NCBI GenBank assembly: GCA_016490735.1
Contig: JAEMWC010000133.1
Span: forward strand, 137,501-201,500
Source: Pachyseris speciosa
Lineage: Eukaryota; Cnidaria; Anthozoa; Scleractinia; Pachyseridae
DNA: 64,000 nt
Direction of reading: 5' to 3'
Part shown: piece by piece, positions 39,315 to 56,400 of the stretch
Layout: each line of letters starts with the position of its first letter
Numbering within the stretch: position 1 is the stretch's first letter
Made by a program: the position numbers and the translations under genes
Notes under the pieces: model-generated
The model's input: the letters and a program-made list of their open reading frames with translations, nothing else
The model's database searches: none
Told to the model about the DNA's origin: nothing

Positions 39315-39956
39315 TTAAACTGCACCATAAAAATTTCTCTTGATTGTCTTCATCGGCTTGTCAACATAACAGAAGGAATATGGTTTCTTGGTTGCTTCAA
39401 TGTATTTCTTCTTGTCAATTCCAAGTTCTTGTGAAATCAGATTCCTTTCTCTTGAGGATGGGAAATCATAAATGCAGAAGTGACTGCAATTGAGTCTGAT
39501 TGATTTTGGACAGCCATAGAATGATTGTGTGAGATATATGACTGAACAGTTCTTGTGTCTTCCCTGAATGAAATAGCTGATTATCTGATCTTGTTTCTTG
39601 TCAGTCACGAAATCATCAAACACAACCAATCGTTGTAAATCAGTGTCTTTAATCTGTTCAACAGGTGATATTTCATCTTGACTGCAAACCAAGGCAGGAT
39701 ATCCAATGTGACTGCTTATTTCATCCATTACTTTCCGAAGATATTTGTACTTGTCTTGATCCAAATTTTTTGCATAAAGATGTATCTGATCATAATAAAC
39801 CAATGGTTCCATAATCAGATGCATGAACAATGTTGTCTTTCCAGATCCAGAATTACCAGCCAATAACATTCTAAATGTATCTTTTGGCATATACGGATAC
39901 AACTGTCTGAATGAATTATTTGAATTCTGAATGATATCATAATTTGGAATTTCCAT
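39315..39956 (-). CDS. FtsK/HerA-family (A32-like) packaging ATPase
   Basis: 213 residues, intact. Walker A is LLAGNSGSGKTT (residues about 30-41) and Walker B is RLVVFDDF near residue 117. A downstream VIYLTQSFYGCPKSIRLN segment contains the Gln/Asn sensor region typical of A32-type ATPases. Known role in Polintons and NCLDVs: pumping DNA into preformed capsids. It is transcribed divergently from the structural cluster that begins at 39993. Almost the same protein is encoded at 59623-60261. Confidence 0.92.
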   Translation of the reverse strand: MEIPNYDIIQNSNNSFRQLYPYMPKDTFRMLLAGNSGSGKTTLFMHLIMEPLVYYDQIHLYAKNLDQDKYKYLRKVMDEISSHIGYPALVCSQDEISPVEQIKDTDLQRLVVFDDFVTDKKQDQIISYFIQGRHKNCSVIYLTQSFYGCPKSIRLNCSHFCIYDFPSSRERNLISQELGIDKKKYIEATKKPYSFCYVDKPMKTIKRNFYGAV

Positions 39957-39992
39957 ATGTTAATAGTTCAGATTAGTCTAACACAATTGTAT
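39957..39992. promoter_or_regulatory. Bidirectional start region between ATPase and structural genes
   Basis: Only 36 bp separate two divergent ATGs. Each ATG has the recurring start context on its own strand: TCTAACACAATTGTATATG to the right, and CTAATCTGAACTATTAACATATG to the left. The same arrangement is kept in E2 (59587-59622). It must carry both promoters, which implies very short or absent 5' leaders. Confidence 0.6.
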
Positions 39993-43337: not shown

Positions 43338-44198
43338 ATGACTACTTATCATCCTCATGGAGTGACACTTTCACAAGGTCAGAAACAAAAGCTAGCAAAA
43401 GCTTATGCAACAAATTCACCTGTAACAATAAGGTTGACGCATAGTGAATTGTCTGGAAATGATCAACTAATGTTGACTAAGAGGCAAATCAACAAACTGA
43501 TTAAATCAAGTAGATCAGGAAAAGGTTCAGACATCAAGATATCAAAAAATCAAATCAGAAAGGCTGTTGTAGAAGGAGGTTCTCTTTGGTCCAGTCTTTT
43601 TTCACTTGGAACAAGACTATTGCCTTATGCAGGTAAAGCAGTAGCTAAAGCGGCTCCAGCATTGGCTACTGGTGCTCTGTCTTCATTAGCAAGTCTCGGT
43701 GTTGATAAACTATTTGGGAAGAAACAAAGTGGAGGATTTCTTATTCCTAATGCCAATTTATCCCAATTATTGAATGTAGGAAATTTATTGAATACGAGAC
43801 AGATGGCAGATATTATTCAAAAAATGCAGTATGGTGGAGACGTTGTTATAAAACCAACAAAAACACAGATTGGAAATGGTATTGGAACAATACTCGCCAG
43901 TATTGGAATTCCTTTGGCCATAGAAGCAATTAGAAAATTAACTGGAAAAGGATTGCATGTTGAAAGCAGCCGTCCAAGACGGTCATTACCAGTTCATGTT
44001 CCAGATTCCATTGCAATAAATAAAAATAAAATTGGTGGAAAACATGCTATGATTCCATGGCAATCCCCTCCTGTTTTTGGTACATGGGATAACCCAATAG
44101 GCATGGGAATGAAAAAAAAAAAGACAAAGGGAAAAGGACTTCTACTAGGCAAAAACAGTCCATTCAATTCAATCCCCATACTAGGAACCATTTTGTAA
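43338..44198 (+). CDS. pVI-like minor capsid/membrane-active protein
   Basis: 286 residues in this frame. The N-terminus is basic (MTTYHPHGVTLSQGQKQKLAKA). A Gly/Ala-rich hydrophobic stretch (RLLPYAGKAVAKAAPALATGALSSLASLG) and an amphipathic segment (IGTILASIGIPLAIEAIRKL) follow, then KHAMIPWQSPPVFGTW and a poly-Lys tract. The layout and position just before the protease fit adenovirus pVI-type proteins; this is inferred. After the A11 run at 44112-44122 this frame runs 26 more codons to a stop, while the protease frame lies -1. In E2 the two are one continuous frame. Confidence 0.68.
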   Translation: MTTYHPHGVTLSQGQKQKLAKAYATNSPVTIRLTHSELSGNDQLMLTKRQINKLIKSSRSGKGSDIKISKNQIRKAVVEGGSLWSSLFSLGTRLLPYAGKAVAKAAPALATGALSSLASLGVDKLFGKKQSGGFLIPNANLSQLLNVGNLLNTRQMADIIQKMQYGGDVVIKPTKTQIGNGIGTILASIGIPLAIEAIRKLTGKGLHVESSRPRRSLPVHVPDSIAINKNKIGGKHAMIPWQSPPVFGTWDNPIGMGMKKKKTKGKGLLLGKNSPFNSIPILGTIL

Positions 44199-44658: not shown

Positions 44659-44814
44659 ATGAAGTCTTATTGTGTGAAACAGAAGAAAGTCACTGAATGT
44701 GTACCAGGAAGTGAAAGATATCAGAAGACTAAAAATGGTCGAACTGTGATGAAATGTACTTGTGCTGAATGTGGAATCACAAAGACTAAATTTGTCAGAA
44801 ATCGGGGAAACTAA
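44659..44814 (+). CDS. Zinc-ribbon mini-protein, DUF5679-like
   Basis: 51 residues from the TATTGGTATATG start. It has YCVKQKKVTEC, then KTKNGRTVMKCTCAECG and KTKFVRN, which resembles the small viral zinc-ribbon family DUF5679. The last sense codons CGG GGA AAC followed by a stop form the in-phase slippery heptamer GGGAAAC, and a hairpin follows 6 nt later. The 51-residue form would then be the non-shifted product, with a -1 product entering the PLA2 frame. E2 keeps the same gene (54861-55019). Confidence 0.75.
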   Translation: MKSYCVKQKKVTECVPGSERYQKTKNGRTVMKCTCAECGITKTKFVRNRGN

Positions 44815-44837
44815 TTAGCCCGTCTGAAGGGGCGGGC
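44805..44837 (+). promoter_or_regulatory. Candidate -1 frameshift signal 1 (zinc ribbon to PLA2)
   Basis: Slippery heptamer G GGA AAC at 44805-44811 is in phase with the zinc-ribbon codons. A 6-nt spacer (44812-44817) contains the stop. A hairpin 44818-44837 has eight pairs (GCCCGTCT with GGGCGGGC, including G-U pairs) and a GAAG loop. The -1 frame is exactly the PLA2 frame. E2 has identical heptamer and stem sequence (54838-54870) even though its spacer and downstream sequence differ. Confidence 0.8.
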
Positions 44838-45515
44838 ATAGGATCAACATTATTAACAACTGGATTAGATTTGCTTGGTCATGCGGCTCCAATGATTGGT
44901 AAAAAGGCATTGCAAGCTGGAAGATATTACGCTTCAGAAGCTCTCAGAAATCCAAAAAATCAACAGTATTTGATTGACAAAGGACTTTCCCTAGCAAAGC
45001 CGGCTATTAGTTCAGTTGGAAAAAAAGCATTATTTGATTTAAGTACAAAAATACGTCCAAAGCGTGCTGACAAGAGACAAACCCATAAAACAGATATCAA
45101 GGGTATTGATTATACACGTGGTGGTGCTATTGATATTCATAAGGTTATTGGCAAGCTTCCTAAACCAAAAGCAGGTTGGACTCCAAGTAAGTATAAATAT
45201 ATGGGCCCTTATAATCCATTGGATGAACAACTGGAATATGATCCATTGACTGGAGAGGTGTTAAAATGGAATGTCCTACCTTACAATAAAGTAGATGAAA
45301 TAGCAGCTTATCATGATATTTGTTATGATATGGGAAAAAATAAAGGTGATTGTGATAGAACAATGGTCGAGTCACTAGATCAAATACCATATGGTGAGAT
45401 GCCAAAATGGGGTCAAACAGCCAGATTCTTAATTGACAAAAAACAGAAACTTGGTCTCGGCATTTCAAAAAACGGAAAAAGCCGTCGAGTGAAGAAAACT
45501 GGCAAGAAAAATTAG
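44811..45515 (+). CDS. Phospholipase A2 domain protein (parvovirus-VP1-like)
   Basis: The frame is open from the frameshift site; the first in-frame ATG is at 44892. After a Gly-rich start come a helical region (QAGRYYASEALRNPKNQ) and the PLA2-like core. The core has a calcium-loop-like GPYNPLD, AAYHDICYD with the catalytic His-Asp, and CDRTM. Known parallel: PLA2 domains in parvovirus capsid proteins act in endosomal escape. The C-terminus is basic. The codons TCA AAA AAC near the end form a second slippery site, leading -1 into the integrase. No TATATG start context is present. Confidence 0.8.
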   Translation, partial: LISPSEGAGIGSTLLTTGLDLLGHAAPMIGKKALQAGRYYASEALRNPKNQQYLIDKGLSLAKPAISSVGKKALFDLSTKIRPKRADKRQTHKTDIKGIDYTRGGAIDIHKVIGKLPKPKAGWTPSKYKYMGPYNPLDEQLEYDPLTGEVLKWNVLPYNKVDEIAAYHDICYDMGKNKGDCDRTMVESLDQIPYGEMPKWGQTARFLIDKKQKLGLGISKNGKSRRVKKTGKKN

Positions 45516-45560
45516 CAGATGAATTACATGCACCCATAAAACGAAATTTCACTCGGCGGC
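45467..45560 (+). promoter_or_regulatory. Candidate -1 frameshift signal 2 (PLA2 to integrase)
   Basis: Slippery heptamer A AAA AAC at 45467-45473 is in phase with PLA2 (TCA AAA AAC). A 7-nt spacer GGAAAAA leads to a 13-bp stem between GCCGTCGAGTGAA (45481-45493) and TTCACTCGGCGGC (45548-45560). It has one G-U pair and a 54-nt loop. The PLA2 stop (45513-45515) lies in the loop. The -1 frame runs straight into the integrase. The whole arrangement is conserved in E2 (54134-54227). AAAAAAC is a classical retroviral slippery sequence. Confidence 0.82.
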
Positions 45561-46435
45561 GTGTGATTGTAAATAAAATTGATGAAATATGGGCAAGTGA
45601 TCTAGTTGAAATGCAACAGTTCAGTAAATGGAATAAAGGTTATCGATATCTTCTTACGGTCATTGATGTCTTCAGCAAATATGGTTGGATTGTCCCATTG
45701 AAGGATAAGAAAGGTGAATCTGTCACTGAAGCATTCAAATCAATATTCAAGGAAGGCAGAAAACCACAGTATTTATGGGTCGACAAGGGAAAAGAGTTTT
45801 ACAACAAACACTTGAAGGACTTGCTAGAGAAACATAGTGTACAGATGTACTCAACTGAGAATGAAGAGAAGTCAACAGTAGTTGAAAGATGGAATAGGAC
45901 AATCAAGTCCAAAATGTGGAAGCAGTTCACTGTTCAAGGTAATACACAGTATTTAGACATGTTACCAAAATTAGTGAAACAGTATAATAATACCAAACAT
46001 TCAAGCACAAAGATGACACCCGTTGAAGCATCTGATAAGAGGAATGAAGGAACTGTTTACTTCAATTTGTATGGTGATATGAAAACATTAAAACAGAAAC
46101 CGAAATTCAAAATAGGTGACAAGGTCCGAATATCTAAGTATAAACGGAATGTGTTCGACAAGGGCTATACACCAAATTGGACTGAAGAAGTGTTTACAGT
46201 TGATAAAATCCAATACACTAATCCAATCACTTACAAACTAAAAGATCTTAGAGGAGAAGATATTGAAGGGAGTTTTTATGAAGCTGAATTATTGAAAGCC
46301 AGACAGGATGTATTCCGTATTGATAAAGTCATTCGCAGAGATTACAAGAAGAAACAAGCTTTGGTGAAGTGGAAGGGATATAGTGATGACTTCAACAGTT
46401 GGATACCGTTCAAGGATTTAAAAGACATATTATAA
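45473..46435 (+). CDS. Retrovirus-type integrase (rve) with chromodomain
   Basis: In the -1 frame from the slip site the protein has a short basic linker and the ELHAPIKRNF segment typical before Polinton integrases. The rve core follows: IWASDLVEM (first Asp), LWVDKGKEF (second Asp) and VVERWNRT (Glu about 35 residues later). The C-terminal chromodomain has FRIDKVIRRDYKKKQALVKWKGY and SWIPFKDL. Known role: inserting the element DNA, with a 6-bp target duplication. The first in-frame ATG lies inside DLVEM, after the first catalytic Asp, so ordinary AUG initiation would give a dead enzyme. It is intact in E1. Confidence 0.92.
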   Translation, partial: RKKPSSEENWQEKLADELHAPIKRNFTRRRVIVNKIDEIWASDLVEMQQFSKWNKGYRYLLTVIDVFSKYGWIVPLKDKKGESVTEAFKSIFKEGRKPQYLWVDKGKEFYNKHLKDLLEKHSVQMYSTENEEKSTVVERWNRTIKSKMWKQFTVQGNTQYLDMLPKLVKQYNNTKHSSTKMTPVEASDKRNEGTVYFNLYGDMKTLKQKPKFKIGDKVRISKYKRNVFDKGYTPNWTEEVFTVDKIQYTNPITYKLKDLRGEDIEGSFYEAELLKARQDVFRIDKVIRRDYKKKQALVKWKGYSDDFNSWIPFKDLKDIL

Positions 46436-46585
46436 AGAGAAAATTATCTAACATATATGTAAAGGAGACCTACAGTATATCTGTTATTTGCTATTATGTA
46501 GCCAAGAATATTATTATTCCTGACTATATTTAAAAACACAGGTCGAAAATGAATTAAAAATAAATTATTATAATATAATATACAA

Positions 46586-47110
46586 ATGCAAAAATATTCC
46601 TACGATAACAAAGAATTAGATGCATCAATAGACTGTTATGTTGATGATAAAAATGATATATGGTTCAGAGGTAGAGACATTGCCAATATTCTCAACTATA
46701 AAAATCCACAAAAAGCAATCAGAGATCATGTTGATTCTGAAGATAAAATCTTATTGGACTTCAAACTGTCCATAAATTCCAAAACAAAGTCAATTTTCGC
46801 TGATGCAATCGAAAAAACTTTCAAATGTTTTTCTATAAATGAAACAGGATTTCATTCACTTTTATTCTCATCCAAAAACAAGAAGCCAAAGAAATTAAAC
46901 ATTGGGTTACTAAAAAGGTTTTACCATTAGTCAGAAAACGAATATATCACAAGCAGTTCAACAACAGAAATAATAACATGCTGATGATTGAAAGTGAAGA
47001 TGATCTGCACTACAAGATTGTGTCATTCATCAGAAAGAAATATGAAGGTGCATTAATGATAGTCGGTCTTGGTGAAAATCAAATAAGCTCAAACATGCGA
47101 ATCAGAAGTT
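46586..47110 (+). pseudogene. BRO-N/nuclease gene, truncated by the E2 insertion
   Basis: The N-terminus is a BRO-N domain (DDKNDIWFRGRDIANILNYKNPQKAI, later FSINETGFHSLLF). The frame shifts by -1 near 46877-46885, inside the domain, and the -1 frame continues (HWVTKKVLP, FIRKKYEGALMIVGLGENQISSNM). The gene stops at 47110, where the E2 terminus begins. In E2 the equivalent continues with a PD-(D/E)XK-type core. E1 is thus cut just before the catalytic residues. Confidence 0.8.
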
Positions 47111-48104: not shown

Positions 48105-51100
48105 TCAACAGCTACAATAGATTTCATAATGTCCATAAGCAAAGCTTGTCACGCCATTATCATGAATATACCGCTTGTCGTCAAAGCAGCTGAGTGATAC
48201 TTTATTTATCTCATAACTTCCAAGTTGATGGTTCTGACTTCTAATTGTTTTCATTCTATGATGCATCTGTTTATTATCAAATAGTGTCTCTTTATAATTT
48301 TCATGTTTGATGTTATTCTTAATAATATTCTTACTAATACCTTTTGCTGTCTTCCCTCCTTTCTGATCATCTTTAATATAGCTATACATCTTCGATCTCA
48401 GTCCTACGAATTCACATATTGGGACTCCAGCAGTCTCATCTTTCATCTTACCAATTACTTTTTTATTGGTCTTATCGGAGAATGGCGAGCTTTCAGGATA
48501 GTCACTGTTATCAAATTTATTTTTATCCTTCCAGAAATTTCTATAGATGTCATGGGTTCCAATTTCATAGGTCAAACTGTCTGTGTCTGTGAATAATAAT
48601 TTTGCTTCATCTCCATATTTCTCTTTGATGTAGTTGTAATGGAAATCGTACATCAGTGTCTTGCTAAGGTCTAGAATACACATCCCCACGTATGCTGGCC
48701 GGTTTAAAGTAAGTGTTTCTTTTATCTTATGAACAGCTACTAGATTTTCATTGAAGATTTTACTGCTAACATAAGTGGGTTTACTAGCTAATTTCAATAG
48801 CTTCTCCTCATCAGTCACCAATCTGACGTCTACTCGCTTTCTAAGGTTTTCCATCGTTTTGCCAAATACACTGTTATTCATCAGCTTGAAAAAGTCTTTC
48901 TCAAAGGCATTTTTAGCGTTAGTTCTTTTCTGCGTGTTGAAGTCGATGTACTGTCTGAGCCACGCGGACTGATTGAATTCTAACACTCGATGGATTTTAG
49001 TTATTTTCAAACCGAGATCAGTATATAATTGGAGGTTCCTATAATGGAGCACGTATTTTTCTTTGTTGCTTAATGTTGGTATTAGTTTATGTACCAGACC
49101 AGTTGATATATTGTATTTCTTTGCTATGTTTTTACAATAATCTGATAGCATGTCCCCAGTCACTTTAATTTTTTCCGGTCCCAGTGGATAATCATTATGT
49201 AAATCATGTAACTCGTGTGGGTATTTTAAATCAACTTCAAGAATCAAACCCTTTGCACTATCTTCTTTATAGACAGCCAGGTCTAAATTATTGATCTGTT
49301 TTTGTGTCATCCATCTGAAACCACCGGTTGGTAAATATTGACTCATAGCCCAACCATACAAATTATTAGCATCAAGATACACGATGTATTTCGAGGGCGC
49401 CTTCTCGTCATACTCTTTCATGTATTTATTATTTGCTTTACCGTAACGGTTGGCTATATAACTGATACCACCGCGCAGACCCTTTTCAATGAACTGGAAC
49501 ATATCAATATCAGTCATCAATTCTAATTTTATGTCAGTCATTTTTAGCATGGCGTCCCAAGATAAACCGGGAGATGTGAAATAGTGACACGGGTCCAGTT
49601 TATAGTACTCAAGGCATGTTTTTCTGAAGTTTTCAAATACATCAGCCAGTAGGAGTACATCTGTTTTAAGGTACAGGTCATGATAATCACCCATGTTTTT
49701 CAAAGAGAATGCTTTCCAAACAGTCTGAGCATGTGTATAGTCTTCATCTGATATATGCGTATCACTCAGTATGCTATAGAATTCATCTTTTGAGGGCAGC
49801 TTCTGATTGAATTGATCGAAACTGTCCATGTAGTCGTAAGGATAAACACCTTTCTGTGCCATTAGATTAAGATCCTTTCCCTTGAACTCTTGTGAGGTGT
49901 ATTTTAAAGCCTCTTTTGGTAGATTGCCTACAAGTTTTTCCAAACTGGAGCTCATGAACTGGAAACTATCAATGAAGGTCAAGTGGTTGCCAAGCATGAA
50001 AGCCATATACTTCTCCATGTTCTTTGGGATAGCATTGATATTCATTTGACAGTCTTCACCTTTCTTGTTTTTGTAAGTGTGCTTCTTAACAATAGCTCCA
50101 ATCTCCTGCATAATAAAATGACTATCATAGCCTCTTAGATTGTGAAATATGACTGGTATTTTTATTTCTTCTGGGTTCACTCTGAGTTTCAGATTACAAT
50201 CTTGGTGAGCAGAACCTCTGTATTTACCAGTGATGTGACAATGATCTCGGACTCTAATATCCTTTTCAGTATATTTCTTATCACAGATGTGACAAACTTT
50301 GGCTTTTCGGAATTTCTCTTCATCATCTTTAGTCATTTTCAATGGTTTGTTAAAATTTTTTTTCACAACATTCTTGCAATATTTGACCTCCTCCAACATA
50401 GCTTTCATGAATTTGTACACAGCCTTTTCACCCCTGTATATTACTGCTGGTTTGCTGTATTTATCGTCATAGCAACAAACAACTTTATAGCCGTAGCCAC
50501 AGTCAGTATGCTTCTGATAGGCTTCAGTGTATGATTTATCATTGTTGGGTTGGCAACCGTGTATTTTTTCAGTGATGGCCTCAAAATCAGCATATATAAC
50601 AAATGGTACCCGCTGTTGTTTATGAAAGTTGTTGAATTTCACTATGTTGTTATCTTTGTTTGGCATTTTTATTGCCTGTGTGCCATTTACTTGCATGCAG
50701 TTGTCCTTGTGATCATTCAACACCCTTTCAGAGCTGAAGCATTGAAGACAGTGCATACAAAAATGTTTTCTTTCTTTGTGCTTTGTTTGATTGTACATAA
50801 ACTTATTGAAATCTTTGATCAGCACATAATGCTTGTTTTCATTTTCAGTTATTAGAAGCAGATTCAAGCAGTCTGCATATTTCTCTTTTGATATATATAT
50901 TGGATATGGCTGTCTATTCTCATAACCAAAAACATTGATGTTGATCTCATTTTGTTTCTCTATCTTGTTGTAATGCTTGGTTGCAACTGGGAATTCAATC
51001 CCTGTATAATCCAATTTTTCAATGTATTTTTTGTCAACTTTTTTAATCCTCTGTGGGTATTTCTCTTGTGGGTTCAGGTGTCTGATGTGACACCATCGGA

Positions 51101-51335
51101 AGCATTCATTATCCTCATTTTTCAAGTTAATTAAACCCTTTGCACTGTTTCTGAGTTCATTCGGTAGTTTAATGTATGAGGAGCCCTTCATTGGCGCATA
51201 TTTCACAACATTGAGGTAATGGCTGTCAACAGATTCAATTGTCCAACCTGAACCTTCAGATACCCAAACTGCAATCTTATTCATTATTTGGTCTTTTGAC
51301 AACTGTAGTGATTCAGTTACTTCCAGATTATTCAC
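48105..51335 (-). CDS. Protein-primed type DNA polymerase B, main frame
   Basis: 1076 codons in one frame. Motifs in order: a Cys/His finger (FCMHCLQCF…HKDNC), ExoI YADFEAI, an HNH-like zinc module (CHICDK…RDHCHITGKYRG…CN), ExoII NLRGYDSHFI, ExoIII YLKTDVLLL, motif A YLDANNLYGWAMSQYLP, motif B NNSVFGKTMEN and motif C LFTDTDSL. All catalytic acidic residues are present. Known role: replication of Polinton DNA. The frame begins at a GTG at 51335, and the gene probably continues upstream into 51328-51924 across a 1-nt frameshift. Confidence 0.93.
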   Translation of the reverse strand: MNNLEVTESLQLSKDQIMNKIAVWVSEGSGWTIESVDSHYLNVVKYAPMKGSSYIKLPNELRNSAKGLINLKNEDNECFRWCHIRHLNPQEKYPQRIKKVDKKYIEKLDYTGIEFPVATKHYNKIEKQNEININVFGYENRQPYPIYISKEKYADCLNLLLITENENKHYVLIKDFNKFMYNQTKHKERKHFCMHCLQCFSSERVLNDHKDNCMQVNGTQAIKMPNKDNNIVKFNNFHKQQRVPFVIYADFEAITEKIHGCQPNNDKSYTEAYQKHTDCGYGYKVVCCYDDKYSKPAVIYRGEKAVYKFMKAMLEEVKYCKNVVKKNFNKPLKMTKDDEEKFRKAKVCHICDKKYTEKDIRVRDHCHITGKYRGSAHQDCNLKLRVNPEEIKIPVIFHNLRGYDSHFIMQEIGAIVKKHTYKNKKGEDCQMNINAIPKNMEKYMAFMLGNHLTFIDSFQFMSSSLEKLVGNLPKEALKYTSQEFKGKDLNLMAQKGVYPYDYMDSFDQFNQKLPSKDEFYSILSDTHISDEDYTHAQTVWKAFSLKNMGDYHDLYLKTDVLLLADVFENFRKTCLEYYKLDPCHYFTSPGLSWDAMLKMTDIKLELMTDIDMFQFIEKGLRGGISYIANRYGKANNKYMKEYDEKAPSKYIVYLDANNLYGWAMSQYLPTGGFRWMTQKQINNLDLAVYKEDSAKGLILEVDLKYPHELHDLHNDYPLGPEKIKVTGDMLSDYCKNIAKKYNISTGLVHKLIPTLSNKEKYVLHYRNLQLYTDLGLKITKIHRVLEFNQSAWLRQYIDFNTQKRTNAKNAFEKDFFKLMNNSVFGKTMENLRKRVDVRLVTDEEKLLKLASKPTYVSSKIFNENLVAVHKIKETLTLNRPAYVGMCILDLSKTLMYDFHYNYIKEKYGDEAKLLFTDTDSLTYEIGTHDIYRNFWKDKNKFDNSDYPESSPFSDKTNKKVIGKMKDETAGVPICEFVGLRSKMYSYIKDDQKGGKTAKGISKNIIKNNIKHENYKETLFDNKQMHHRMKTIRSQNHQLGSYEINKVSLSCFDDKRYIHDNGVTSFAYGHYEIYCSC

Positions 51336-51924
51336 AATTGTTTGAGCTACACTGTTGAAATATGCGGTTTTTAAACTCTAATTGTCCATCAGTCATTTTT
51401 GCAAATGTTACCTTGAGTGTTTCAACAAATTTGAGACCTTTAATTTCATTCAACAATTTTATAATATTATATGCAACAGCCTTTCTTGTGTTTTGCAGTT
51501 GCGCAAGCGGGTCTTTGTTATTTTTTATACCGATTTCAAAAGATTTTGTGAAGCCCTTCAGAGCTTTCTCTGTTTGCTCTATCTTAGTCCTGGGTGTAGG
51601 TGTTGGTCTCTGAATCACCTGTTTGGTTCTGGGGGCTGGGATCGGTCTCTTTTTCAATTGTTCTATTTCTTCCAACCATTCTTTTGGTGGTGCTGGTAAT
51701 CTTTTTCTTTCGAAGTAATCAACCAATTCTTTCACAGTTGGTCTTTTCGTCCTTGGGGCGGGAATTGGTCTTGTTCTTGGTTTAGGTACAGGTTTTGTGT
51801 CATCAACTATAATAACTTTAGGCTTTTTCTGCTGCTTCAACAGCAATTCGATTAGCTTGGATTTGCTCAATTTTTTGAGACTTTTCTTGTCCATATTACT
51901 ACTAGTTTCGATAATTTTTTCCAT
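51328..51924 (-). CDS. Proline-rich N-terminal part of the PolB gene (frame-disrupted)
   Basis: 198 codons from the ATG at 51924 (TATATTATAAATG context). Repeated KPRTRPIPAPRTK-like units are followed by a helical region (ALKGFTKSFEIG, KGLKFVETLKVTF). The frame is +1 out of register with PolB. The switch lies in an A-run near 51366-51372, after which the PolB frame upstream of 51335 is already open. The simplest reading is one polymerase gene with a single-base insertion. The proline-rich leader could hold the terminal-protein or partner-binding region; this is inferred. Confidence 0.7.
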   Translation of the reverse strand: MEKIIETSSNMDKKSLKKLSKSKLIELLLKQQKKPKVIIVDDTKPVPKPRTRPIPAPRTKRPTVKELVDYFERKRLPAPPKEWLEEIEQLKKRPIPAPRTKQVIQRPTPTPRTKIEQTEKALKGFTKSFEIGIKNNKDPLAQLQNTRKAVAYNIIKLLNEIKGLKFVETLKVTFAKMTDGQLEFKNRIFQQCSSNNCE

Positions 51925-53259: not shown

Positions 53260-54221
53260 TTATAATATGTCTTTTAAATCCTTGAACGGGATCCAACTGT
53301 TAAATTCGTCACTGTAACCCTTCCACTTCACCAAAGCTTGTTTCTTCTTGTAATCTCTGCGAATGACTTTATCAATACGGAATACATCCTGTCTGGCTTT
53401 CAATAATTCAGCTTCATAAAAACTCCCTTGTATTTCTTCATCGTTGAGATCTTTTAGTTTGTAAGTGACTGGATTAGTGTATTGGATCTTATCAACTGTA
53501 AATACTTCTTCAGTCCAATTTGGTGTATAGCCCTTGTCGAACACATTCCGTTTATACTTGGATATTCGACCTTATCACCTATTTTAAATTTTGGTTTCTG
53601 TTTTAATGTTTTCATATCACCATACAAATTGAAGTAAACAGTTCCTTCATTCCTCTTATCAGATGCTTCAACGGGTGTCATCTTTGTGCTTGAATGTTTG
53701 GTATTATTATACTGTTTCACTAATTTTGGTAACATGTCTAAATACTGTGTATTACCTTGAACAGTGAACTGCTTCCACATTTTGGATTTAATTGTCCTAT
53801 TCCATCTTTCAACTACTGATGATTTCTCTTCATTCTCAGTTGAGTACATCTGTACACTATGTTTCTCTAGCAAGTCCTTCAAGTGTTTGTTGTAAAACTC
53901 TTTTCCCTTGTCGACCCATAAATACTGTGGTTTTCTACCTTCCTTGAATATTGATTTGAATGCTTCAGTGACAGATTCACCTTTCTTATCCTTCAATGGG
54001 ACAATCCAACCATATTTGCTGAAGACATCAATAACCATAAGAAGATATCGATAACCTTTATTCCATTTACTGAACTGTTGCATTTCAACTAGATCACTTG
54101 CCCATATTTCATCAATTTTATTTACAATCACACGCCGCCGAGTGAAATTTCGTTTTATGGGTGCATGTAATTCATCAGCTAGTTTTTCTTGCCAGTTTTC
54201 TTCACTCGACGGCTTTTTCCG
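53260..54221 (-). pseudogene. Integrase of E2 (1-bp deletion)
   Basis: Near-identical to the E1 integrase, including the three catalytic acidic residues and the chromodomain. One base is missing near 53567-53571 (E1 has GTCCGAATATC at that place), shifting the frame between core and chromodomain. Upstream the frame is open to the AAAAAAC slip site at 54221-54227, as in E1. Confidence 0.9.
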
Positions 54222-54227
54222 TTTTTT
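54134..54227 (-). promoter_or_regulatory. Candidate -1 frameshift signal 2, E2 copy
   Basis: On the minus strand: AAAAAAC (54227-54221) in phase with PLA2, a 7-nt spacer (54220-54214), stem arm GCCGTCGAGTGAA (54213-54201) and the pairing arm TTCACTCGGCGGC (54146-54134). All paired bases are identical to E1. Confidence 0.82.
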
Positions 54228-54864
54228 GAAACACCGAGACCAAGTTTCTGTTTTTTGTCGATTAAGAATCTAGCTGTTTGACCCCATTTTGGCATCTCAC
54301 CATATGGTATTTGATCTAGTGACTCGACCATTGTTCTATCACAATCACCTTTATTTTTTCCCATATCATAACAAATATCGTGGTAAGCTGCTATTTCATC
54401 CACTTTGTTATAAGGTTGTACATTCCATTTCAAGACCTCACCTGTGTTTTTATCATACTCTAACTGTTTATCGAGGGGATTATAAGGTCCCATGTATTTA
54501 TACTTTCCGGGTGTCCATCCACTTTTCGGTTTAGGAAGCTTGCCAATAACCTTATGAATGTCAATAGCACCGCCATAATCTAATCCTTTGATATCTGTTT
54601 TGTAACGAATATTTGGTCTCACTTTTGTTGAGAGTTGTTTCAAAGCTTCTGACCCAACCTTTGTGATTGCAGGCTTTGCGAGGGAAAGTCCTTTGTCAAT
54701 TAATTTCTTTTGCAGCTTTGGATTTCTCATTGCTTCAGAAGCATAATATCTACCCATTTCAACACCCTTCTTCGCTAAATAAGGGACTCCATGTTCAAAA
54801 ATCCTGTTAGCGCCATATCTGCGGCTGAATCTAGTATGCCCGCCCCTTCAGACGGGCTATTCAG
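54179..54864 (-). pseudogene. Phospholipase A2 protein of E2 (N-terminal frameshift)
   Basis: The domain core is intact from MGRYYASEAM (54757) to the C-terminal KKTGKKN, with GPYNPLD, AAYHDICYD and CDRTM. The -1 frame entered from the slip site (54864-54870) runs through a GAGILDSAAD segment and then breaks in a T-run at 54797-54801, where one base appears to be missing. The upstream 60 codons differ strongly from E1, whereas the frameshift signal does not. Confidence 0.78.
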
Positions 54865-54870
54865 TTTCCC
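54838..54870 (-). promoter_or_regulatory. Candidate -1 frameshift signal 1, E2 copy
   Basis: On the minus strand: GGGAAAC (54870-54864) in phase with the zinc-ribbon codons, a 6-nt spacer TGAATA (differs from E1 TAATTA) and the same 8-bp stem with GAAG loop (54857-54838). Confidence 0.8.
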
Positions 54871-55031: not shown

Positions 55032-56333
55032 TTAGATATTTTTAAAGTAGTCTATGATGAATCTGTGATTGACTCTTGTGTCTGTTGGATCAAATTCAGC
55101 ATTATGTATTGTATTAAGAATGGATCTCCCATTTTGTCTCTCGAGAAGATAGTACAAACACCAATATCCACACAAGACTGAATCTCTTTCTTGTATCTCA
55201 TCTCCAGAGTATTCAAGTTGTTTTCCACTTGTAGCCATGTATTTCTGTACTTCTGTTGGCATCATTAAACCAAATGAGTCAAAGTATTCACAGTATCTAT
55301 CACCAATTCGATAACATACCCAGTGAGTACCAGGTCCAATCTTACTGTCAAGATTGACTATCCCACATTCATTCTTTTTTATTTGTCTCGGCAGATTGTC
55401 TCTTGAAAATACTCCTCTAAAATGTTTTATTCCAAGTTGTTTAACCCAATTGATTAAATCAAAGTTGGATAAGGGTTTGTTTACAAAATGGTTCCTAGTA
55501 TGGGGATTGAATTGAATGGACTGTTTTTGCCCAGTAGAAGTCCTTTTCCTTTTCTTTTTTTTTTTCATTCCATAACCGATTGGGTTATTCCATGTACCAA
55601 AAACAGGAGGAGATTGCCATGGAATCATAGCATGTTTCCCACCTTTCTTTCTGGGTACAATGTCATCTGGAACATGAACAGGTATTGACCGTCTTGGACG
55701 GCTGCTTTCAACATGCAAACCTTTTCCAGTTAATTTTCTGATTGCTTCTATAGCCAAAGGAATTCCAATGCTGGCGAGTATTGTTCCAATACCCTTTCCA
55801 GTCTGCGCTTTTGTTGGTTTTATAACAACGTCTCCACCATACTGCATTTTTTGGATAACATCAGCCATCTGTCTCGTATTCAATAAATTTCCTACATTCA
55901 ATAATTGGGATAAATTGGCATTAGGAATAAGAAATCCTCCTTTTTGTTTCTTTCCAAATAGTTTATCAATGCCGAGACTTGCTAATGAAGAAAGAGCACC
56001 TGTAGCCAATGCTGGAGCCGCTTTAGCTACTGCTTTACCTGCATAAGGCAATAGTCTTGTTCCAAGTGAAAAAAGACTGGACCAAAGAGAACCTCCTTCT
56101 TGGACTGATTTTCTGATCTGTGCTTTGGATATCTTTACATCAGCACCTGTTCCATTTCTCTGTGATTTGGCTAATTTTTTTATCTGTGTTTTTGTCAACA
56201 TCATTTGATCACCTCCAGTGAGATCTCCATGTGCGAGTCTCAATGTTACCGGTGAATTTGTTTGTATAGCTTTTGCAAGCCTTTGCTTCTGACTTCCTGA
56301 AAGTCTTACTCCATGAGGATGATAAGTAGTCAT
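55032..56333 (-). CDS. Continuous pVI-like plus adenain-type protease frame
   Basis: 433 residues in one frame. Residues 1 to about 255 are the pVI-like part (same hydrophobic and amphipathic segments as E1), then a Lys/Arg linker after the same A11 run. The protease follows from NKPLSNFDLINWVKQLG, with GTHW, YFDSFG and LCGYWC. E1 has two extra bases just after the run and is therefore in two frames. In adenoviruses the protease uses a pVI peptide as cofactor, so covalent linkage would be functionally suggestive; the fusion could also be an indel artefact. Confidence 0.82.
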   Translation of the reverse strand: MTTYHPHGVRLSGSQKQRLAKAIQTNSPVTLRLAHGDLTGGDQMMLTKTQIKKLAKSQRNGTGADVKISKAQIRKSVQEGGSLWSSLFSLGTRLLPYAGKAVAKAAPALATGALSSLASLGIDKLFGKKQKGGFLIPNANLSQLLNVGNLLNTRQMADVIQKMQYGGDVVIKPTKAQTGKGIGTILASIGIPLAIEAIRKLTGKGLHVESSRPRRSIPVHVPDDIVPRKKGGKHAMIPWQSPPVFGTWNNPIGYGMKKKKKRKRTSTGQKQSIQFNPHTRNHFVNKPLSNFDLINWVKQLGIKHFRGVFSRDNLPRQIKKNECGIVNLDSKIGPGTHWVCYRIGDRYCEYFDSFGLMMPTEVQKYMATSGKQLEYSGDEIQERDSVLCGYWCLYYLLERQNGRSILNTIHNAEFDPTDTRVNHRFIIDYFKNI

Positions 56334-56400
56334 ATAATATATGTTTATACTAAATTGTATTTAATATAAAACAATCATTTAATTTATTTAATTATTTAAT

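Follow-up and report, generated by a model that had tools for sequence, protein, structure and literature searches.

The window analyzed here is a stretch of 64,000 nucleotides (nt) from the coral Pachyseris speciosa (assembly GCA_016490735.1, contig JAEMWC010000133.1, positions 137,501 to 201,500 of the forward strand), and it contains two copies, E1 and E2, of a Polinton-type element. In E1, on the plus strand, a zinc ribbon, a phospholipase A2 (PLA2) protein and an integrase are encoded in this order, and each reading frame lies one base back from the preceding one. The junction between PLA2 and integrase (site 2) is a strong candidate for a -1 programmed ribosomal frameshift signal, and a second candidate (site 1) lies between the zinc ribbon and PLA2. 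The features of E1, numbered from the first base of the window, are as follows.

44659..44814, plus strand: zinc-ribbon open reading frame (ORF), DUF5679-like, from sequence; proposed as frame 0 of a double-frameshift unit
44790..45515, plus strand: PLA2 open frame, parvovirus-type phospholipase A2 domain (Pfam PF08398, E 1.9e-7)
44805..44811, plus strand: G GGA AAC, slippery heptamer of site 1, for the proposed -1 shift from zinc ribbon to PLA2
44818..44837, plus strand: site 1 hairpin of 8 bp with a 4-nt loop, after a 6-nt spacer
45437..46435, plus strand: integrase open frame, rve core and chromodomain; -1 entry would be at 45467
45467..45473, plus strand: site 2 slippery heptamer A AAA AAC, in PLA2 phase
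45474..45480, plus strand: site 2 spacer GGAAAAA, 7 nt
45481..45493, plus strand: site 2 stem, 5' arm GCCGTCGAGTGAA
45494..45547, plus strand: site 2 loop, 54 nt, containing the PLA2 stop (45513-45515)
45548..45560, plus strand: site 2 stem, 3' arm TTCACTCGGCGGC, within the integrase codons for FTRRR

The integrase frame matches rve (PF00665, E 1.1e-10) and the chromodomain (PF00385, E 1.5e-7) in Pfam, and foamy-virus (PFV) integrase was among the PDB relatives when a profile of the integrase relatives was compared with solved structures. The DUF5679 match of the zinc ribbon (Pfam E 5.5e-4) falls below the gathering score.

At site 2, AAAAAAC begins on the third base of a PLA2 codon (TCA AAA AAC), and the 13-bp stem consists of 12 Watson-Crick pairs and one G-U pair, with one further G-U pair that can be added inside. 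The integrase frame is closed upstream by TGA at 45434, from which it is open to 46435. Its earliest ATG is at 45611, beyond the codon for the catalytic Asp at 45599, as identified by the DLVEM motif and the match to rve. An additional AAAAAAC at 45438 is out of slip phase. The sequence-only reading that had drawn attention to this junction described the heptamer, the 7-nt spacer, the stem and the loop with the PLA2 stop exactly as they are found, and it was also right that the earliest integrase ATG comes after the catalytic Asp.

For every X XXY YYZ heptamer on either strand of the window, the best downstream stem was scored, allowing a spacing of 5-9 nt and loops no longer than 100 nt. The site 2 heptamers of E1 (45467) and E2 (54227) rank first and second among the 782 heptamers by downstream stem. 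Each has a stem of 14 pairs, including two G-U, and a score of 34; the next best heptamer scores 26, and the site 2 score was equaled by none of 3000 dinucleotide shuffles. The site 2 signal is far beyond chance within the window. A downstream pseudoknot with the site 2 loop was looked for by eye only, and none is shown.

E2 lies on the minus strand and has the same arrangement.

54838..54870, minus strand: site 1 of E2, heptamer 54870-54864 and hairpin
54134..54227, minus strand: site 2 of E2, heptamer 54227-54221, arms 54213-54201 and 54146-54134 (arm coordinates by offset from E1)
53260..54269, minus strand: integrase of E2, interrupted by a frame break in the C-terminal third

The -1 frame had been said to run uninterrupted into the integrase in both elements. 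The junctions of E1 and E2 do match, and the E2 integrase breaks farther on. The integrase starts of the two copies show 14 differences in the first 688 nt (98% identical), and the PLA2 frames show 140 differences in 677 nt, with indels besides. Because the integrase starts are nearly identical, the agreement between E1 and E2 is weak evidence and was set aside. The two copies are not independent and E2 is damaged; therefore, the rest of the genome was examined.

The 984-Mb assembly was searched with a codon pattern for DKGKEFYN, a motif encoded about 300 nt downstream of the site 2 signal. There were at least 1495 exact matches genome-wide and none with a reversed control; by this count, the integrase family is very large. 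The first 100 of the 1495 matches, in contig order, were taken as a sample. The junction was present in 98 of these copies (L063 and L094 were without it and were dropped), and 93 of the 98 have AAAAAAC. The PLA2 motif could be placed in 93 copies, five being without it, and both frames are open across the heptamer in 70. The integrase frame is -1 relative to PLA2 in 60 of these 70 copies, the same as PLA2 in seven and +1 in three. Among the 60 -1 copies, the heptamer is AAAAAAC in 59, the PLA2 stop follows 39 nt on in 58, and an integrase-frame stop lies 30-45 nt upstream of the heptamer in 59. The earliest integrase-frame ATG is at +137 in 58 copies and at +134 in one, hence past the Asp in 59/60; the remaining copy has an upstream ATG (-67). 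Also, 37 of the 60 have at least 450 nt of open PLA2 together with a full-length integrase. The sequence-only reading had asked whether the overlap is kept in intact family members and whether they, too, have no integrase ATG upstream; in this sample, both hold.

A tree of 73 copies, built from the integrase sequence downstream of the signal, has several separate lineages, with support values that are rough. Twenty further copies were chosen as divergent PLA2 matches, and 15 of them have AAAAAAC, a 7-nt spacer and a 14-bp stem between separate frames. Of the others, L114 has AAAAAAA and the stem, L119 and L127 have one frame, and L116 and L122 lack the full signal. The site 2 signal is conserved across the sampled copies.

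The spacer GGAAAAA is identical in 95/98 copies and the loop is 54 nt in 93/98. Across the 98 copies and 13 pairs (1274 cells), 1161 cells are Watson-Crick, 106 are G-U and seven are broken, a count that leans towards structure because the arms were located by their likeness to E1. Among the 81 indel-free copies, the CGN third base opposite U in the 3' arm is always A or G, and the remaining synonymous third bases of the ACN and CGN codons in this arm are fixed, while one CGN third base ahead of the arm occurs in four states. However, the CGN third base just past the arm (+88) is also invariant, and the C/T variation within the arm is everything that the Phe codons permit, so the argument from synonymous sites is only modest.

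Proportions of nonsynonymous and synonymous differences (pN and pS) were calculated for the integrase in 33 intact -1 copies, four of the 37 having been dropped for length. The pN/pS ratio is 0.11-0.16 in all five segments, and pS rises from 0.05 in the overlap to 0.12-0.13 immediately beyond it and 0.25-0.29 farther on. For PLA2, pN/pS is 0.32 at a pS of 0.48 (37 copies). Judged from these ratios, the integrase of the -1 copies is under strong purifying selection. Since it is selected though out of frame and without an AUG, it must be translated somehow. Separately, E1 and E2 have diverged far more in PLA2 than at the integrase start (44790-46124), and the same contrast is seen across the copies, where pS is 0.48 in PLA2 and 0.05-0.13 at or just past the joint. 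This contrast may be due to constraint, recombination or gene conversion.

The junction was also followed in database relatives. For PLA2, 120 of 875 matches were listed and 112 of them had the anchor; a second list of 120 added 90 new ones, 48 with the anchor. Among the 112 anchored matches listed, the PLA2 tail at the slip is xKN in 82 and GLN in 20 (102/112), and the remaining ten comprise three with KN in another context, four others and three long tails. The 48 new anchored matches listed have xKN in 38 and GLN in six (44/48), besides three others and one fused tail. AAAAAAC is the sole heptamer compatible with QKN in combination with KKR, the -1 peptide of relatives, and TTTAAAC and TTTAAAT are the only ones compatible with GLN in combination with FK; as a control, this back-translation of peptide pairs recovered the actual E1 heptamer. 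In relatives, AAAAAAC at site 2 would thus seem to have been exchanged for TTTAAAC or TTTAAAT, as suggested by protein pairs that are possibly on different contigs. For the integrase, 120 clusters were listed among at least 6735 matches. Close database proteins from named corals are P0196 (Oculina patagonica) and P0255 (Porites lobata). No relative was found in viral contigs with the integrase, the integrase alignment or the PLA2 alignment as query, and among contigs of prokaryote genomes there was a single weak match, in a cyanobacterial metagenome-assembled genome, which involved the chromodomain end.

With a probability of about 0.88, a -1 programmed ribosomal frameshift signal is the reading that suits the junction best. 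While translating PLA2, ribosomes would be held up at the stem of 13-14 bp, A AAA AAC then occupying the P and A sites. The majority would go on and terminate at 45513, and a minority would slip back one base and make a PLA2-integrase fusion. The anatomy, the frame relation, the lack of an upstream AUG, the conserved heptamer, spacer and pairing, and the selection on the out-of-frame integrase are computed results. Slippage itself, its efficiency, the role of the fusion as the active integrase, and the delivery of integrase into particles through fusion to a virion protein, in the manner of Gag-Pol, are inferred.

Several points weigh against a frameshift at site 2. The whole-fold test is milder than the stem score (z -2.3; 5/200 shuffles fold as well), and E2 is broken in its integrase frame near 53.57 kb and in its PLA2 frame near the N terminus. 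The sample is restricted to copies with an intact DKGKEFYN string, the copies are related, and the integrase half looks homogenized. The 5' arm of the stem is nearly invariant, so that the pairing-preserving changes are one-sided only and there is no two-sided covariation. There is no swap of the site 2 heptamer at the DNA level in this genome, and the swap in relatives comes from proteins of mostly unnamed assemblies. Fused PLA2-integrase proteins occur in 33 of the 120 listed clusters (32 by Pfam and P0144 by sequence), which amounts to 212/7088 member sequences (3%) of the listed clusters. In thirteen of the 120 listed integrases, the frame extends upstream as far as an MG... start located in PLA2; those of P0185, P0190 and P0211 extend upstream as well. 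AUG starts are possible in those relatives because the integrase frame is open upstream into PLA2. By our own reading, many other listed integrases start at apparent prokaryotic TTG or GTG calls or at an ATG past the Asp.

The same-frame arrangement in 7/70 copies of this genome is a further point of this kind, and it was named by the sequence-only reading as something that would count against its interpretation. In five of these copies (L015, L039, L053, L088 and L098), an indel lies at the slippery run or no more than about 10 nt from it, and in two (L043 and L095) it lies farther upstream, as judged by eye. They join PLA2 to the integrase, which fits a fusion as the product; in those copies, slippage is not needed. 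The frameshift interpretation is supported by the copies at large and by the pN/pS of the integrase.

The same-frame forms, here and in the 33 listed clusters, are what a shared mutation would lead one to expect. In that case, an ancestral fusion in one frame would have been followed by the loss of a single A-run base in a master copy, from which the -1 copies would derive, and their integrase would be dead and supplied in trans. An extra A in the run does join the frames in L039, L088 and L119 at the DNA level, and for the database fusions the same can be proposed from the protein. However, -1 copies dominate in this genome and fused forms are a small share of the listed member sequences. The strong purifying selection on the integrase of the 33 -1 copies disfavors a dead gene, and a dead junction leaves a stem at the right spacing with its pairing kept unexplained. 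We therefore regard a shared mutation as improbable.

Selection without an AUG could also be met by separate initiation, in which the integrase is started from a near-cognate codon (GTG at 45563), or from an AUG inside PLA2 in some relatives, through a dedicated transcript or scanning. The GTG is kept in 30/33 intact copies, weaker near-cognates before the Asp are kept in nearly all (ATT in 33, ATT in 32 and ATA in 32 of 33), and the 13 listed database integrases with an upstream in-frame MG... start point the same way. Against this, E1 has 25 AUGs ahead of the Asp codon, counted from and including the zinc-ribbon start, the stop 30-45 nt upstream of the heptamer closes the integrase frame in nearly all -1 copies, and neither the heptamer nor the stem is predicted. 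Separate initiation is thus very unlikely, somewhat more so than a shared mutation. Least probable of all is splicing of an upstream exon in frame to the integrase: introns are present in some eukaryotic DNA elements, but within 45301-45600 the 15 nt before an AG never reach 60% pyrimidines (a crude test on E1 alone, with no control on known splice sites), and the heptamer, spacer and stem would be left unexplained.

Frameshifting may not be confined to the integrase. Site 1 sits 662 nt upstream of site 2 and has a GC-rich hairpin. Its whole-fold z is -4.6, with 0/200 shuffles as good, and its stem score was reached by 51/3000 dinucleotide shuffles. The heptamer could be read in 83/100 copies and the 5' arm of the hairpin in 85, L067 and L109 being cut at the edge. 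The 83 heptamers are GGGAAAC (76), TTTAAAC (4), GGGAAAT (1), TTTAAAT (1) and TTTAAAG (1), and the variants keep the spacer length and an identical or near-identical hairpin. Reading in -1 yields a PLA2-like N terminus in the seven copies without GGGAAAC; in L028 and L084, two of the four with TTTAAAC, the zero frame is outside the fetched stretch. At the DNA level, site 1 therefore shows replacement of its heptamer by another slippery heptamer.

Both genes could be placed in 73 copies, and a site 1 hairpin of at least 7 bp is present in 61/63 -1 copies, 5/6 +1 copies and 0/4 same-frame copies. The difference between -1 and same-frame copies is significant by Fisher's test (2e-5), with the caveat that the four same-frame copies are of two types and that copies are related. 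As a side observation, these four copies with zinc ribbon and PLA2 in the same frame (L023, L032, L052 and L071) are without both the site 1 heptamer and the hairpin. In 39 of 77 zinc-anchored copies, site 1 is complete and site 2 is open in -1 with AAAAAAC. A PLA2 protein could be made without site 1 because there is an in-frame AUG at 44892, whereas at site 2 of E1 there is no such AUG bypass for the integrase. Our best reading of the unit as a whole is double -1 programmed frameshifting across sites 1 and 2. G GGA AAC and its hairpin would link the zinc ribbon to PLA2, and ribosomes that slip twice would make a zinc ribbon-PLA2-integrase protein.

A third signal, at 44093-44198 where a PX-like ORF overlaps a protease, was considered and is treated as a likely indel. 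The two ORFs are in -1 relation in E1 around a run of 11 A and in one frame in E2 (55032-56360). No stem of more than 5 bp follows the in-phase heptamers of this overlap, and the protease frame there is without an ATG before 44297.

Elsewhere in the window, an FtsK/A32-type packaging ATPase (PF04665, E 6e-17) is encoded at 39315-39959. For a 1090-residue polymerase-like ORF (48105-51377), Pfam gave only Endonuclease_7, and a TDTDS stretch is visible in the translation. Three candidate ORFs for capsid proteins or a Ulp1-like protease had no Pfam match. An ORF with a BRO-N domain (PF02498, 1.9e-16) lies directly 3' of the integrase at 46583-46927. Within 48105-51924, a separate ORF of 198 residues precedes the polymerase-like ORF, which recalls the split terminal protein of the Stylophora polinton as an excerpt of PMC11071308 presents it.

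The rve-chromodomain integrase, A32-type ATPase, long polymerase-like ORF and compact gene array are shared with Polintons/Mavericks and adintoviruses, and the nearest named coral example in the literature searched is a Stylophora coral adintovirus (PMC11071308). In vertebrate Mavericks, the integrase is listed as its own gene in an excerpt of PMC8097293, in contrast to its -1 overlap with PLA2 here. For adintoviruses, a passage of PMC11071296 proposes a hypothetical -1 frameshift in Penton ORFs, predicted by KnotInFrame, and a similar relation for Hexon-Adenain. The likeness is that -1 frameshifting is suggested within the same broad virus group; the difference is that, in that passage, capsid proteins and a protease are concerned, not an integrase or PLA2, and that it is worded as a hypothesis (PMC11071296).

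No description of a frameshift in a Polinton integrase or between PLA2 and integrase was found in the open-licence PMC text searched. If true, the site 2 frameshift would be the first case, to our knowledge, of a Polinton-type integrase made by -1 frameshifting. It would give these elements a concrete means of setting the integrase dose and of loading the enzyme into virions. It would also mean that gene finders can truncate such integrases at a false start, and the signal of about 150 nt can be tested in a standard reporter.

In the IS3 family of insertion sequences, OrfA and OrfB are fused by a -1 frameshift at A AAA AAG. A DDE recombinase made as a -1 fusion is the feature in common; the ribosomes are bacterial there, the heptamer is another one and there are no virion proteins.

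The closest parallel in layout is retroviral gag-pro-pol. The betaretrovirus mouse mammary tumor virus uses a double frameshift with the heptamers A AAA AAC and G GAU UUA. The coral unit resembles these systems in the class and phase of its heptamers, the short spacer and the downstream stem. It also places a structural protein before the -1 enzyme, ends in an rve integrase and would need two successive -1 slips, as in betaretroviruses. In contrast to retroviruses, the coral unit is part of a DNA element, its integrase comes directly past the slip with no reverse transcriptase between (the integrase frame overlaps PLA2), its upstream partner is a PLA2 protein, and its stem is a simple one with a long loop. 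By analogy, a double-stranded DNA virus lineage may have converged on the Gag-Pro-Pol logic, a proposal to which we give even odds. Through two -1 slips, a virion protein that penetrates membranes would, in a small and fixed proportion of its molecules, carry the integrase, as zinc ribbon-PLA2-integrase, into the particle and on to the next host nucleus, and integration would thereby be coupled to infection.
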